From Blautia argi (GTDB lineage Bacteria > Bacillota > Clostridia > Lachnospirales > Lachnospiraceae): a stretch of DNA of 64,000 nucleotides. Location: NCBI RefSeq assembly GCF_003287895.1, contig NZ_CP030280.1:3103501-3167500 (forward strand). The letters run 5' to 3'. Made by a program: the position numbers and the translations under genes. The notes below the pieces were generated by a model that was given only the letters and a program-made list of their open reading frames with translations, was not told where the DNA came from and did not search any database. This document shows, piece after piece, positions 7,626 through 61,013 of the stretch. How positions within the stretch are numbered: position 1 is the first letter of the stretch; each line of letters starts with the position of its first letter.

Positions 7626-9465
7626 TTATTCTACGGTAACACTCTTTGCAAGATTTCTTGGTTTATCTACGTCCAGACCTTTTGCAACAGATATATAATA
7701 TGATAAAAGCTGTAGGGGAATCACTGCCAGACTAGTTGCAAACACATCTTTTGTCCTGGGTACATACACCGTAAAATCTGCAATATCCTCCATAGAATAG
7801 TTTCCATAGGAAGTAAGACCTAAAACAGATGCCCCTCTGCTTCGCACCTCTACCAGATTGCTGATTTCCTTCTCAAACAAATTCGGCTGCGTTGCTGCTC
7901 CTATAACCAAAACCCCATCCTCTATAAAGTGAAATGGTTCCATGTTTTAATTCTCCTGCTGCATAAGCCTCTGAATGAATGTAGGAAATTTCCTTCAGCT
8001 TCAAAGAACCTTCCAGGGAAATAGCATAATCCAGACCTCTTCCTATAAAGAAAACATCTCTTGCGTGAGAATATTTATTGGCAAGCCACTGGATTCTTTC
8101 TTTTTCGTTCAAAATATGCTGTATTTTTTCCGGAAGCACCTCAAGCTCCTGAATATAGGATTCATATTCCTCATCTGCCAACACACCCCGAACCTTTCCA
8201 AATAACAGCCCAATCAGATACACAGCTGCCAATTGAGTGCTATAGGCCTTTGTCGTTGCCACCGAAATTTCCGGCCCTGCCCATGTATAAAAAACGCTGT
8301 CTGCTTCTCTGGCAATAGAACTCCCCACTACATTTACAATGCCCAGAACCTTATATCCCCGTTTCTGGGCTTCCCTTAATGCAGCCAGGGAATCGGCAGT
8401 TTCTCCAGACTGGCTGACTATTACCACTAACGTGTTTTCTGTCAAAAGGGGATTTCTGTATCGAAATTCTGATGCCAGGTCTACATCAACCGGAATCCTT
8501 GTGAGTTCCTCCAGTACATATTTTGCACAAACACACACATGATAAGCCGAACCGCATGCTACCATCTGAATACGGCTGATATTCTGAATCTCCTCATCAG
8601 ACATCTCCAGCTCCTCAATCACAATTTTCCCGTCCTTTATTCTGGGACTGATGGTGTCTGCCACTGCTTTTGGCTGTTCATAGATTTCCTTCAGCATAAA
8701 ATGCTCAAAGCCTTCTTTTTCTGCTGCCTTGGCGTCCCACTCTACAGTTTTAAATTCCTTTTGTATTTCTTCCTGGTCTTCGTCGTAAAACTGAATGGTA
8801 TCTGCTGTAATTTCTGCAATTTCCCTATCCTCAATATAACATACTGTTTTTGTATATTTCAAAATCGCCGGAACATCAGAAGCAATAAAATTTCCCTGTT
8901 CAGATTTCCCAATAATCAAAGGGCTGTCTTTTCGCACTGCATACAAAACACCTGGGTTTTCCTGAAATAAAATCCCCAATGCATAGGAGCCTCTCACTCT
9001 TCCCAAAACCTTTGTAATTGCTTCTAAAGGATTTCCCTGATAATAATAATCCAGAAGATGTGCGAGAACCTCAGTGTCTGTTTCCGAAACAAAGATATAA
9101 CCCTTTTTCTGTAAATACTCCTTGATTTCCTTATAGTTTTCAATAATTCCGTTGTGTACCACTGCAATCTTTTTATCCTTTGACACATGGGGGTGGGCAT
9201 TAACCACAGACGGCTCTCCATGTGTTGCCCAACGGGTATGTCCGATTCCACAGCAGCCCTTTACTGTACTCCCGTTATCTGTCATCTCCCGAAGCGCCTG
9301 TAAGCGTCCCTTTGCCTTAATCACTTCGAGTTTTCCCTGCTCATCACGATTATCCTGCACAGCAATACCGGCAGAATCATAACCTCTGTATTCCAGCTTT
9401 GAAAGACCGTCAATTAAAATAGATGCTGCATTTTCATTTCCCACATATCCAACAATTCCACACAT
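7626..9465 (-). CDS. glmS: Glucosamine-6-phosphate synthase (isomerizing), interrupted by a +1 frameshift
   Basis: Makes glucosamine-6-phosphate from fructose-6-phosphate and glutamine, the entry to peptidoglycan amino sugars. ATG at 9465 directly precedes the nucleophile Cys (MCGIVGYVG) and follows GGAGG; the longer upstream frame is rejected. The class II glutaminase domain (HTRWATHGEPS) and two SIS domains are present. The reading frame breaks at 7926-7928: on the coding strand CTTTATAGAG should read CTTATAGAG. Removing one T joins AGELKHGTISL to IEDGVLVIGAATQ and gives a normal 612-aa GlmS ending SVTVE. A sequencing or assembly error is the simplest explanation because the gene is usually essential and both halves are intact. 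No glmS ribozyme is visible upstream. Confidence 0.92.
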
Positions 9466-9526
9466 GTTTTCCGCCTCCTGATGTCTTTTTTGCATAATTG
9501 TTTCTTTTTTTTACACTTTCTGCTCC

Positions 9527-17248: not shown

Positions 17249-17950
17249 ATGTTTATAGACTACTCTTATATCGTTTATGTACTTCCTGCCGTACTTTTTG
17301 CCATGTGGACCAGCGCTCATGTAAACAGCACGTTTCGCCGCTACTCCACACAGTACTCTATGCGAAATGTGACCGGCTATGATGCAGCCAGACGGGTGCT
17401 TGATGCCAATGGTCTGTACCATGTACGCATTGAACGGGTCAACGGAAGTCTGACTGACCATTATGATCCCAGAAGCAATGTGATACGCCTTTCAGACAGC
17501 GTATACTCCCAGACCTCTACAGCAGCCATTGGGGTCGCAGCCCACGAAGCCGGACATGCAATCCAATATGCACAGCATTATATACCCATTCGTCTTAGAA
17601 ATGCTATTATTCCCATTACCAATCTGGGGTCCAAGCTGGCTATGCCTCTTATTTTAATTGGTCTGCTTTTTGCCGGTACAGGCTCTTCTATGGGAATGCT
17701 GGCCTATGTGGGTGTCGCCTGCTTTGGTTTTTCCACGCTGTTCCAGCTTTTTACGCTTCCCACAGAGTTTGACGCCAGCCGCAGGGCCATACGGGCCATT
17801 GAAACCTGCGGAATCCTCAGTTCTGATGAAATTTATGGTTCCAAAAAGGTGCTTACAGCCGCAGCCTTAACCTATGTAGCGGCTCTGGCAGTTTCCCTCA
17901 TGCAGCTGCTTCGTCTTTTAAACATCGTAAACAGACGAAACAATAACTGA
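17249..17950 (+). CDS. YugP-family membrane zinc metallopeptidase
   Basis: 233-aa integral membrane protein with the HEAGH zinc-binding motif at residues 99-103 (VAAHEAGHAIQYAQ), an N-terminal membrane segment, and three or more C-terminal membrane segments. The conserved TLPTEFDASRRA supplies the third zinc ligand region. This is the YugP / PF04298 family, common in Firmicutes and of unknown substrate. The second ATG (17249) is chosen because AGGAG is nine bases upstream; an earlier ATG at 17240 overlaps that site. It lies on the same strand as, and 63 bp ahead of, the retron ncRNA. The family is a widespread housekeeping one, so the neighbourhood is probably fortuitous. Confidence 0.88.
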   Translation: MFIDYSYIVYVLPAVLFAMWTSAHVNSTFRRYSTQYSMRNVTGYDAARRVLDANGLYHVRIERVNGSLTDHYDPRSNVIRLSDSVYSQTSTAAIGVAAHEAGHAIQYAQHYIPIRLRNAIIPITNLGSKLAMPLILIGLLFAGTGSSMGMLAYVGVACFGFSTLFQLFTLPTEFDASRRAIRAIETCGILSSDEIYGSKKVLTAAALTYVAALAVSLMQLLRLLNIVNRRNNN

Positions 17951-17976
17951 ATGTTTCTCTCACAAAGTTTTCTCGC

Positions 17977-18005
17977 TTTACTTTCTGATACTGCTGTGCT
18001 ACAGT
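17977..18005 (+). promoter_or_regulatory. Candidate promoter of the retron ncRNA
   Basis: TTTACT (17977-17982), 17-bp spacer, then TACAGT (18000-18005) preceded by an extended TGC (17997-17999). The predicted transcription start, about 18012, coincides with the start of the a1 repeat at 18014. The elements are imperfect, but the placement is what a retron transcript needs. Confidence 0.5.
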
Positions 18006-18013
18006 AATTTTAT

Positions 18014-18025
18014 ACACAGCAGACA
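18014..18025 (+). repeat. Retron a1 inverted repeat
   Basis: ACACAGCAGACA, perfectly complementary to the a2 copy at 18191-18202. It ends immediately before AGC-like sequence (A18025 G18026 C18027), where G18026 is the expected 2'-5' branch guanosine. Confidence 0.85.
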
Positions 18026-18190
18026 GCGAGGACAGATTTCTGTCAGAGAAGCGAGTCGCTTTTCTATTTTTTCAATAAAAGGAATGGCTTTGCCAGCCCT
18101 TCTTTGGCTTCGAGGTACATCTGCACATTTCATGTGCTTTGCCCGCCTGCGGCGCAGTACCTCTTCGCCAAATCCGGTATCACCATTTTG

Positions 18191-18202
18191 TGTCTGCTGT
18201 GT
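18191..18202 (+). repeat. Retron a2 inverted repeat
   Basis: TGTCTGCTGTGT, exact reverse complement of a1, 49 bp before the RT start codon. The pairing a1:a2 primes msd reverse transcription in known retrons. Confidence 0.85.
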
Positions 18203-18251
18203 TTTCAGCGAATTTATAAACATACAGCAATCAAAACACAGGAGATATCTT

Positions 18252-19226
18252 ATGAATTCTTCCCTCTGTAATTACTGCACAGAAAATCAAATACAGGATT
18301 TCCTTCTTTCTCTGCATCTGACCGGTACTTTAACCCATTCGCCTAAGGCAGAACTTGCGCTTTTATACGGGCTTGCCAATCACGCGGAAGAACATTACGA
18401 AAGAGTGCTTCTCCCAAAAAAGGACGGCAGCAAACGAATACTTCATGTACCGGATAGTGTGTTAAAACATGTACAAAAGCAAATATTGCGGCAGGTATTA
18501 ATGGAAATCCCTGTATCTTCCTATTCCTGTGCCTATCAAAAAGGAAGCTCCCTTTCCCAAAACGCAGCGCCACATAAAGGACAGAAGCTGTTGCTAAAGC
18601 TGGATATCCATGACTTTTTTGGCAGTATTTCCTATATCAGTGTCTACCAGCACGGGTTTCCCTGCGAACGGATACCAGACCCGGTCCGCACACTGCTGGC
18701 ACATCTGTGCTGTTATAAGGATATGCTTCCTCAGGGCGCACCTGCTTCCCCTTATCTTTCTAATCTTGTAATGAAACCTTTTGATGAATATATGGGAAAC
18801 TGGTGCAGGGAAAGAGAGATTGCTTATACAAGATACTGTGATGACCTCACTTTTTCCGGCGACTTTAATCCCAAAGAAGTGTACAGAAAAGCAAAAGGAT
18901 TTTTAAACCGTCTTGGTTTTGAAGTGAATTCCCGAAAGACCCATATAATTTCTCAGAAAAATCGTCAGGAGGTCACCGGGATTACTGTAAATGAAAAACT
19001 CCAGGTTCCGAAAAACTACCGCCGACAACTTCGACAGGAATGTTACTATATTCAAAAGTTTGGTCTGGAAAATCATTTAAAACAGACAGGCTGTCAGGAC
19101 AGCTCTGCTAAATATCTGCAGCGGCTTCTGGGAAAAATAGAATATGTTTTGCAGGTAAATCCTGAGGATATGGAATTTCAGGAGTTAAAGAAACGAATGA
19201 AAGTATATCGGAAAAATGACGAATAG
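18252..19226 (+). CDS. Retron-type reverse transcriptase
   Basis: 324-aa RT that should copy the msd part of the adjacent ncRNA into multicopy single-stranded DNA linked to the msr RNA. Motifs in order: NAAPH at 104-108 (the retron-specific NAxxH), LDIHDFF with catalytic D118, QGAPASPYLSN at 161-171, YCDD at 195-198 with catalytic D197/D198, and VTG at 241-243 (retron RT7 motif, thumb entry). Length equals single-domain retron RTs; no maturase, endonuclease or fused effector domain is present. ATG at 18252 follows AGGAG; the frame continues upstream to 18084 but that would translate the msd. No effector gene lies downstream: the next gene is on the opposite strand 32 bp away. Defence against phage is the known role of characterised retrons, inferred here. 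Confidence 0.93.
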   Translation: MNSSLCNYCTENQIQDFLLSLHLTGTLTHSPKAELALLYGLANHAEEHYERVLLPKKDGSKRILHVPDSVLKHVQKQILRQVLMEIPVSSYSCAYQKGSSLSQNAAPHKGQKLLLKLDIHDFFGSISYISVYQHGFPCERIPDPVRTLLAHLCCYKDMLPQGAPASPYLSNLVMKPFDEYMGNWCREREIAYTRYCDDLTFSGDFNPKEVYRKAKGFLNRLGFEVNSRKTHIISQKNRQEVTGITVNEKLQVPKNYRRQLRQECYYIQKFGLENHLKQTGCQDSSAKYLQRLLGKIEYVLQVNPEDMEFQELKKRMKVYRKNDE

Positions 19227-57457: not shown

Positions 57458-60400
57458 TTACTTTGCTTCCTCTATGACAGTCTGGAAATCCTGCAAAATC
57501 TTCCCCAAAAGCTCCAGTACGTCCAGAATTTCCTTTGGTCTGCGTCCTTTTAGGGATACCAGGAAGTACGGAGTTTCCTCCAGTTTCATTTTCAGATTGT
57601 TTTTATATTTGTCCAGAATGGCCGGGAAACCTGCGGGATTTACCTTTGCCCTTTCAAACATGGATATTTTCACTTCTTTTCCGTTCTGTTTGATTTCCTG
57701 AATATAAGCCTTATGCGCCAACGCCTTGAGATTTGCAATGGTCAGAAGATTCTGCACAGTCTTCGGCGGCTCTCCGAAACGGTCTAAAAGCTCTTCCAGC
57801 ATATCCTCATACTCTTCCTGAGATTCGATTCCTGCAATCCGCTTATAAATATCCAGCTTCTGATATTCATTTGGAATATAAGAGGGCGGAATGTAGGCGT
57901 TTACCTCTAAATCAATGGCAGTTTCAAAGCTCTCCTGCTTCTTCAGTCCCTTTTCCTCCCGCACAGCCTCTTCCAGCATTTTACAATACAAATCATATCC
58001 TACTGCCTGCATATGTCCATGCTGCTCTGCACCAAGAAGATTTCCTGCTCCGCGGATTTCCAAATCCCGCATAGCAATTTTAAAACCACTTCCCAAATCT
58101 GTAAATTCACGGATAGCATGAAGACGCTTTTCCGCAACCTCTTTCAGCATTTTGTTTTTCCGGTACATGAGAAAAGCATAAGCAGTCTTGTTGGAACGTC
58201 CGACTCTTCCCCGAAGCTGATAAAGCTGGGATAAGCCCATCTGGTCTGCATCGTGAATAATCATGGTATTGGCATTGGAAATATCCAAACCGGTTTCTAT
58301 GATGGTGGTGGAAACCAACACATCAATTTCCCCGTTAATGAAACCATACATAATTTTTTCCAACTGATGCTCATGCATCTGTCCATGGGCAAAAGCTACA
58401 TTTGCCTCTGGCACCAGCTTGGCTACCCTATTTGTAATCTCATCTATATCATTGACGCGATTGTATACATAATACACCTGACCGCCCCGCGCCATTTCTC
58501 TGCTGATAGCTTCCCGCACCATTTCTTCGTTGTATTCCATGACAAAAGTCTGTATGGGCATACGATCCATGGGGGCTTCCTCCAGCACACTCATATCACG
58601 GATACCGATAAGACTCATATGAAGGGTTCTGGGAATCGGCGTGGCAGTCAGAGTAAGTACATCAACATTTTCCTTCATTTTCTTGATTTTCTCTTTATGA
58701 GTTACCCCAAACCGCTGCTCCTCATCAATGATCAAAAGCCCCAAATCCTTGAATTTAATATCATCGGAAAGCACTCTGTGGGTTCCGATTAAAATATCCA
58801 CAAGACCTTTCTGCAGGTCTGCAATAGTCTTTTTCTGCTGCGCCGGAGTTTTGAACCTGCAAAGCAAATCCACCCGCACAGGAAAATCTTTCATACGCTG
58901 AACAAAGGTATTGTAATGCTGCTGTGCCAGAATCGTGGTTGGCACCAGATACACCACCTGCTTGCCCTCCTGCACAGCTTTAAAGGCAATGCGGATTGCT
59001 ACCTCTGTCTTACCATATCCCACGTCCCCGCAAATCAGGCGGTCCATAATCTTCGGACTTTCCATATCCTTTTTGGCTGCTTCTATGGCAAGAAGCTGGT
59101 CTTCTGTTTCCTCGTAAGGAAACATTTCCTCAAATTCCTTCTGCCAGACTGTGTCCGGCTCATACTGAAATCCTGACTGCGCCTGTCTTGCAGCATAAAG
59201 CTTTACCAGGTCTTTGGCAATATTTTTTACTGCGCCCCGCACCTTTGTCTTGGTCTTCTTCCATTCCTGACCGCCCAGACGGTTCAGCTTCGGAACCTTT
59301 GCGTCTGCACCTGCATATTTTTGCAGTACGTCTAACTGGTTCGGCAGAATATACAGGGTCGTATCCCCGGCATAGTCGATTTTGATATAATCCTTTGTCA
59401 CCCGGTCTACAGTAATCTTTTCAATTCCCTTATATATGCCCAGACCGTGATTTTCATGCACCACATAATCACCAATGCTCAATTCTGAAAAATTCTGTAT
59501 TTTCTTTCCGCTGTACTCTGCTTTTTTCCGCCGCTTCCTTCTTCGCCTCACCGAAAATATCAGACTCTGTAATCATGACAAATTTTACAAGAGGATACTC
59601 AAAGCCCCGGCGCATACGTCCAAAGGCGGTCATAATCTCTCCCGGTGCAAGAACGCGGTTCATATCCTCTGTATAAAAACTGTTCAGCCCTTCTTCTCTT
59701 AAATCCTCCGCCAGTCGGGCTGCCCTTGTGCGGGATCCGGATAAAAGCAGCACCTGATAGCCGTTTTTGCGATACTGCTTCAAATCCTTTACCAAAAGTT
59801 CAAAGCTGTTGTTATAAGGGCTGACAGACTGGGCAGAAATGTGGAACTGATCTTTGATGTCCCAATCCCCCTTCTGCTGCTCAATAGTGCAGAGAGATAC
59901 ACATTTTTTCTTATTTAATTTGGAAACCGCCTGCTTACAGCTAATGAGAAGGTCTGTCTGTCCGGGCAGAAGATAGCCTTTTTCCAGCCTGTGCTTCATG
60001 CTCTCCTGAAATTCTGCTTCTACTGCAGTCCCCTGCTCCACAAGACGGTTTGTTTCGTCCAGAATTACCAGGGTTTCCTCTGTCTGGAAATAATCGGTAA
60101 AGGTTACGGCATCTTTATAAAAATACCGTAAAAAATGCTCTGCCACAGAAAAATCTTCAAATTCCTTCAGGCAGTCCACAGCCTCTTCCACACTCTGTTT
60201 CAATCTGGCGCCTTCTTCTGTCAAAAAATCCTCCCGGAATTTTTTTACTGTAAGATTTTTCTCTTTTTCTATTTTTTCCAGACCTTTTTTCAAAACCTCC
60301 GGACTTAACACGATTTCTGAGGCAGGATAAATGGTGATTTCGTCCAGATTTTCTATAGAACGCTGGCTCTCTGCATCAAAGCTGCGGATTGAATCAATTT

Positions 60401-61013
60401 CATCGCCCCACAGTTCTATACGCACCGGATTTTCCTCTGTGAGAGGAAAAATATCAATAATTCCACCCCGGAAACAAAACTGTCCCGGAAGCTCTGCCTG
60501 GGCACATCGCTCATACCCCATGCCCAGCAGCTTTTTCTTTAATTTTTCCATATCAAGAGGACTGTCCCCGCCAAAGTGCAACGTATGCTCCTCCAGTACG
60601 TAAAGGGGAAGCAGATAATCCATACACCCGCCCATACTGGTAATCACTGTCACGCCTTTTTTCTGTAAAAGAGCGGCAATAACCTTCATTCGCTCTCTGG
60701 TCAGGAGATTCCCGTGAATATCCGCCTGAAAGAAAATCAAATCCTTTGTTGGATACAAATATACGTCCCTGTCATAAAGACGGTAATCTTCATATAATTC
60801 CTTTGCCTTTAAATCATTCTCAGCAACAATCAAACAGTTTTTCCCACACGCTTTGCCGTCTTTTCGCAAACCTTCTAAAAGCCCATATATCATATGGGCT
60901 TTCTGAGATTCCACACAGCCCGAAAGCTGGAGGATACCTTTATGTTTGGGGAGCCGGTCTTTCAACTCCCCGTATTCGCTGAGTTTTTCCAAGGGCTGCA
61001 TGAATACCTGCAT
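57458..61013 (-). CDS. mfd: Transcription-repair coupling factor, interrupted by a +1 frameshift
   Basis: DNA translocase that removes stalled RNA polymerase and recruits UvrA. Corrected length is 1184 aa, normal for Mfd. The N-terminal frame has the UvrB-like part (GQFCFRGGIIDIFPLTEENPVRIELWGDEIDSIRSFD); the C-terminal frame has the RNAP-interaction domain (SIGDYVVHENHGLGIYKGIE), helicase motifs GDVGYGKTEVAIRIAFKA, DEEQRFGVTHKEKIK, TLTATPIPRTLHMSLIGIRDMS, QLRGRVGRS and the TRCF domain. At 59537-59538 one extra C (coding GG for G) disrupts EAKKKRRKKAEYSGKK. Start at 61013 follows CAGGAG, which contains the pth stop, so the two are coupled. Sequence error is the likely cause. Confidence 0.93.

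Follow-up and report, generated by a model that had tools for sequence, protein, structure and literature searches.

An apparently solitary Ec107-family (Eco5) retron in Blautia argi

The stretch of DNA analysed here, hereafter the window, comprises 64,000 nucleotides from the genome of the gut bacterium Blautia argi and contains at 18014-19226 a complete-looking retron, made up of a 189-nt structured non-coding RNA (ncRNA) and a downstream reverse transcriptase (RT) gene (Table 1). A putative zinc metallopeptidase (PF04298) is encoded upstream and a 2219-aa Ig-like surface protein downstream in convergent orientation, and the remaining genes of the window, as far as scanned, are metabolic and housekeeping genes. 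The RT frame ends with the stop codon at 19224-19226; a longer mechanical ORF starts at 18084 and overlaps the ncRNA, but alignment with related RTs agrees with a start at the ATG at 18252 instead, which gives a protein of 324 aa. A search of the whole genome (3.3 Mb, single contig) returned one match to the RT and, for the ncRNA, one full match and five short weak ones, and additional ncRNA copies were rejected, since beyond the retron itself only those five matches exist. A role as a transcription-factor decoy was also dropped, as the only exact match to the msd palindrome TGCACANNNNATGTGC in the genome is the one in the retron.

Table 1. Features of the Blautia argi retron locus (window coordinates)
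Feature	Position	Strand	Basis or remark
Putative promoter TTTACT-17 nt-TACAGT, 8 nt upstream of a1	17977..18005	+	kept in L010 and L011
a1 arm	18014..18025	+	sequence, covariation, shuffle/tile test
Presumed branch G (2'-OH primer)	18026..18026	+	G after a1 in 17/17; function predicted
msr hairpin 1	18031..18044	+	fold; sequence not conserved
msr hairpin 2, GCGAGUCGC core	18045..18065	+	core in 17/17 aligned ncRNAs
Predicted msDNA template, ~107 nt	18084..18190	+	analogy with Ec107 only
msd long stem, 3x3 internal loop	18103..18172	+	fold; pairs covary
a2 arm	18191..18202	+	sequence, covariation, shuffle/tile test
Retron RT, 324 aa, Ec107 family	18252..19226	+	profile score, tree, E. coli RT alignment

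A sequence-only reading of this locus had described a 189-nt element with exact 12-bp inverted ends, and direct reading of the sequence bears this out, a1 and a2 being perfect 12-bp reverse complements. Two of 300 dinucleotide shuffles, and none of 188 window tiles (340 nt each), held a perfect 12-bp inverted repeat of the same geometry; taken alone, the repeat would be no more than suggestive. The fold of 18000-18215 (-80.1 kcal/mol, z -6.3, an energy equalled in none of 200 shuffles) contains the a1/a2 stem and the msr hairpins; it also contains the long stem of the msd, interrupted by the 3x3 internal loop (TTC/TTC) that the same reading had reported. The heptamer AGCGAGG, said to follow a1 directly as in Ec86, is present at 18025-18031, but a1 itself ends with the A of this heptamer, and the G directly after a1 is the only base there kept in all 17 aligned ncRNAs; the following bases vary among these relatives, so that GCGAGG is not a feature of the family. 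The putative promoter is weak, matching 8 of 12 consensus bases, escaping a strict scan and being equalled at 11% of random places. Within the ncRNA, an msr hairpin and U-run (18045-18075) resemble an intrinsic terminator, and attenuation in Blautia argi is possible; the U-run is absent from several rows of the 17-ncRNA alignment.

The ncRNA alignment comprised 16 Bacillota loci, taken from a set of 30 rows, and Ec107 of E. coli. Nine of the 30 rows, in which strict a1/a2 detection gave no pair or an unfitting one, were left out, as were L018, L040, L060, L061 and the divergent L063. Across these 17 ncRNAs, 181 of the 184 a1/a2 cells are paired and 55 two-sided changes are seen, although the arms were picked for pairing, which inflates the paired percentage, and the counts ignore the relatedness of the rows. 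When whole a2 arms were dealt out anew, the mean was 15.6 two-sided changes and 55 was reached in none of 2000 redeals; the excess of further pair types is less striking (23 versus 18.5 when redealt, with 60 of 2000 as high). RNAalifold recovered both the msd stem and the GCGAGUCGC hairpin, and 18 of their 26 pairs show two-sided changes; the a1/a2 stem, misaligned by MAFFT, is missing from its result. Across the 16 Bacillota ncRNAs and Ec107, compensatory changes thus preserve the a1/a2, msr and msd stems.

Of 31 Ec107-like loci, 28 carry the hairpin motif CGAGTCG in the 620 nt that precede the RT, versus 5 of 954 background stretches, and a hairpin of at least six pairs is present in 22 of the 31 (that of L063 being a chance GATTC stem) versus 11 of 941 background stretches. 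We dropped the hairpin as a mark of Ec107 alone, as the motif also stands upstream in two of six comparison loci outside the Ec107 group. The Ec107-like loci without the motif include L063 and L120; the latter, whose RT has YSDD and whose upstream 620 nt are free of the motif, may be either a degenerate unit or an RT working with another RNA.

The RT carries NAAPH (residues 104-108), YCDD (195-198) and VTG (241-243), confirming the NAxxH, YCDD and VTG motifs that had been named from the translation. Among PADLOC profiles it scores 458 bits with RT_Ec107-like versus 341 with the next model, RT_III-A; in the PDB the top match is the RT of Ec86 (E 1.9e-34), and NCBIfam retron_St85 gives 222.6, under the cut-off of 235. 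With 70.6 bits the group II intron model stays far under its cut-off of 300, as do the Drt2 and Drt3a models relative to theirs, and no DGR RT model was reported among the profile matches. Our tree held 36 RTs, six of them other retron-like RTs beyond the Ec107 group and none from DGRs; it omitted L018 (cut by a contig end), L040 (equal to L011), the truncated L049 and the near copies L060 and L061, and L056 and L016 were shortened. Thirty Ec107-like RTs, including that of the window, form one group (99/94) in which E. coli Ec107 sits among Bacillota RTs, and type III-A RTs are the sister group by both profile score and tree. Retron identity, as first proposed, is thus upheld: the RT falls with retron RTs, the group II intron model scores low, and the a1/a2 arms covary in homologous loci. 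YCDD is found in 24 of 25 counted Bacillota Ec107-like RTs. The dN/dS of the RT is 0.058-0.161 in eight pairs, in two of which (window versus L010 and versus L011) dS is saturated (2.3-2.5), and the gene is under purifying selection.

Ec107 was sought as a split slmA-pyrE region: 5374 E. coli genomes matched, 5001 of them covering at least 80% in one place, and in both genomes inspected among the remaining 373 a lone 'reverse transcriptase family protein' lies between slmA and pyrE. This E. coli RT (L111) scores 437 bits with the RT_Ec107-like model and shares 46% identity with that of the window across 307 aa; we take it to be Ec107, given its pyrE-neighbouring site, its YCDD and the profile name. 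The two retrons have ncRNAs of nearly equal a1-to-a2 length (189 nt in the window, 190 nt in Ec107) that share the GCGAGUCGC msr hairpin and are homologous, their RTs have the YCDD active site in common, and the RT gene of E. coli also stands alone among housekeeping genes (slmA, pyrE). However, Ec107 belongs to another phylum and occupies another site (that of the window lies between the metallopeptidase and the giant surface protein), its msd hairpin is unlike in sequence, and its RT lacks the N-terminal LWKYC-like stretch found in Bacillota RTs; moreover, its msDNA is known, whereas that of the window retron is predicted from sequence. Profile score, tree, RT identity, active-site motif and shared msr hairpin all indicate that the window retron is a member of the Ec107 (Eco5) family. 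The ncRNA had not been recognised in the sequence-only reading, and Rfam indeed gives no gathering-score match in the window and, at E <= 5, four weak unrelated matches in 17950-18300; as an Ec107-family ncRNA, its type is nevertheless known.

Type III-A retrons (e.g. L047, from a Blautia genome) have RTs of the sister group and an ncRNA region preceding the RT, but they carry PRTase and winged-helix genes upstream of it, and neither PRTase_III-A nor WH_III-A genes were found alongside the window RT. Retron-Eco1 (Ec86) provides the best PDB match as a fellow retron RT, with lower similarity than Ec107, but its NDT-type effector has no counterpart at the window locus. An earlier report (PMC6868368) attributes YCDD to Eco5 and states that Ec107 replaces a palindromic 34-bp intergenic sequence, with mobile elements not nearby. 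Palindromic intergenic repeats that resemble each other are present downstream of the RT in L043 and after the metallopeptidase gene in L085, the retron-free site of another species, an observation that we set beside the palindrome replacement described in that report (PMC6868368).

No linked or fused effector was found beside the window retron, and none recurs beside its relatives at 28 loci representing about 21 sites. Within up to 6 kb of these Ec107-like loci, no family recurs at a constant place: the most widely shared neighbours, ABC-transporter permeases, occur at 5 of the ~21 sites at varying distances, and glycoside hydrolases, PfkB, LacI-type regulators and other families shared between sites vary in distance and orientation. 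An aroA-tyrA-aroF-like operon lies on opposite sides of the RT at two sites (L017 of Hungatella, and L059-L062 from four other genomes), with a paralogue at a third. A PADLOC and Pfam scan of 104 of the 110 nearest-neighbour proteins of 29 loci likewise revealed no recurring retron effector family among the best 25 of 50 PADLOC and 25 of 125 Pfam families, the rest of which match one protein each. The commonest Pfam families among the 104 were TatD (4 proteins) and PfkB, AI-2E transporters, TetR and ABC permeases (3 each), and one protein matched the RT-Protease_XI model. As a positive control, ORFs of 278-297 aa and 94-102 aa stand upstream of the RT in all four III-A loci examined, and in two of these loci the proteins were scanned, all four of them matching the PRTase_III-A and WH_III-A models; the neighbour method thus detects effectors where they are present. 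PRTase, the only effector type sought genome-wide, has no homologue in the genome of the window and is found in one of 20 genus genomes, which also carries a III-A retron.

A hidden small effector ORF was rejected, since comparison with the two closest relatives shows poor conservation both in the a2-RT spacer and downstream of the RT stop, and single-base indels in the ncRNA, which makes a conserved coding frame unlikely. A defence island was also rejected, as the PADLOC tally of the 44 window proteins (best 25 of 40 families) looks, in our own reading, like cross-matches of kinases and glycogen enzymes. On these sequence comparisons, the window retron appears to be solitary, with no linked known effector, and the absence of PRTase and winged-helix genes is a feature of the Ec107-like lineage rather than of this locus alone. 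In L056 (588-2291) an Ec107-like RT is in frame with a YjeF_N domain (residues 381-547), and in L063 a 653-aa ORF lies 126 bp upstream of the RT; these two members and the one adjacent to the RT-Protease_XI match may individually have partners.

Full-length Ec107-like RTs are present in 9 of the 20 genus genomes and RT matches in 12, the extra three being one genome whose copy is truncated and two whose RTs are all of other types; 19 of the 20 hold one copy or fewer. Beside tatD, the retron is intact in three Blautia species (G202, G207, G217), the RT is 5'-truncated in G204 and reduced to 3' remnants in G209 and G210 (spotted by eye), and in G200 and G216 the flanks, recognised by eye, are without a retron. 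The Ec107-like 3' remnants of G210 (L091) and G209 (L092) lie just before position 1501 of these loci, and G210 also carries a III-A retron elsewhere in its genome. The site occupied in the window is retron-free in G211 (B. hansenii) and G215 (matching Ca. B. stercoravium), whose retrons lie elsewhere. In wider samples, the RT has matches at E <= 1e-60 in 9 of 200 genomes of the family, some of them not Ec107-like, and the Ec107-like model has matches at E <= 1e-110 in 5 of 398 genomes of the phylum.

Plasmids and viral contigs yielded no close relative. Of 102 relatives from a scan of viral contigs, 80 were retained; the top one, at 41% identity, carries YADD and obtains a higher score as III-A, and for three of the 80 the Ec107 profile gives the higher score, in each case under 191 bits. 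Carriage by phages or plasmids was rejected, as there is no DNA match in phages and the best protein matches are 39% (plasmid) and 46% (phage record). The latter (L202, MT838960.1) is a 'Bacteriophage sp.' record from faeces, itself unverified, that combines an Ec107-like RT and YCDD with the msr hairpin, and it may be bacterial DNA.

The intact RT motifs, the conserved RNA and the purifying selection support a working retron. We propose that a transcript beginning at or near a1 would carry the msr-msd and the RT message, and that the a1/a2 stem and, presumably, the GCGAGUCGC hairpin would present this RNA to the RT, which would prime from the 2'-OH of G18026 and copy the msd from about 18190 down to about 18084; host RNase H would then strip the template, leaving a branched, RT-bound RNA-DNA. 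By analogy with Ec107, this msDNA would be about 107 nt long, with its branch at G18026, and the complementary DNA of the putative template folds well (z -4.6). The 85-105 nt given by the sequence-only reading would be slightly low if the product follows the E. coli relative (107 by name). We favour an RT-msDNA complex that would need no dedicated effector, acting alone or through a host protein whose gene lies elsewhere, and whose loss would be tolerated by the cell. We regard Ec107 family identity, solitary make-up and msDNA synthesis, taken jointly, as highly probable; the proposed role of the complex we consider evenly balanced. The phage-defence function that had been expected of the locus does not carry over, as there is no effector beside the retron or recurring beside its relatives and no PRTase homologue in the genome; the usual linked-toxin mechanism in cis is not supported by these sequence data. 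The earlier reading is thus partly supported, and the solitary state of the retron, absent from it, is added by the present analysis.

Among other explanations, the retron might hold a toxin whose gene lies elsewhere in the genome, with RT and msDNA silencing this unlinked toxin until phage infection frees it. The sister group III-A has effectors, which makes an ancestral partner plausible, genes can become unlinked, and the RT is under purifying selection; however, the PRTase result given above, with the single homologue of the genus sample in the III-A carrier, speaks against such an arrangement, as does the tatD site, where the retron has decayed in three genomes and is absent in two. Antitoxin loss needs earlier toxin loss, and the repeated decay at this site thus makes a standing unlinked toxin less likely, though not impossible. 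We consider this explanation unlikely, yet worth keeping in mind, and an unlinked effector of another family is conceivable. Descent from a type III-A retron by local loss of the PRTase and winged-helix genes would agree with the sister-group relationship in profile score and tree, but the window RT groups with the other Ec107-like RTs (99/94) and these genes are missing at all 28 loci of the ~21 sites, so that such a derivation is very improbable.

The retron could also be a drifting or selfish element without host benefit, whose RT and RNA persist and move occasionally, as related species carry it at different chromosomal sites, with decayed copies, empty sites and no partner gene. Against this stand a dN/dS of 0.06-0.16 and structure-keeping changes in the RNA, which reveal selection on function, the limit of one copy or fewer in 19 of 20 genus genomes, the lack of close relatives among the plasmids and viral contigs searched, and its retention at one site in three Blautia species; we hold a purely drifting element to be quite improbable. 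Beyond the favoured reading of a working, solitary Ec107-family retron, we suggest tentatively, and with less than even confidence, that Ec107-type retrons might be a chromosomal lineage, present in at least Bacillota and E. coli, whose function would require no dedicated toxin and would lie in a non-tripartite action of RT-msDNA itself, perhaps aided by a core protein of the host.

Current explanations of retrons mostly invoke phage defence of a toxin-antitoxin-like kind, and Ec107 and its Bacillota relatives, which seem to have no linked effector, contrast with this prevailing explanation. Orphan retrons as such are already known, as a previous article (PMC8867640) states that some retrons have no clear association with nearby effector genes. 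In PMC12548924 and PMC12262390 we found no mention of Ec107, Eco5 or Blautia, and among the literature searched, by titles and abstracts, no paper treats a solitary Ec107-type lineage of Lachnospiraceae, although papers beyond the searched set may. The solitary Bacillota members, together with the remnants and empty sites in sister species, could make the function of effector-less retrons testable by simple deletion, and the covarying ncRNAs with their conserved hairpin offer comparative material on RT-RNA recognition.

Elsewhere in the window, two genes, which we take to be glmS (7629-9495) and mfd (57461-61013), the latter also by its TRCF domain, are each represented by two overlapping ORFs in different frames, which suggests frameshifts or sequencing errors in these housekeeping genes.
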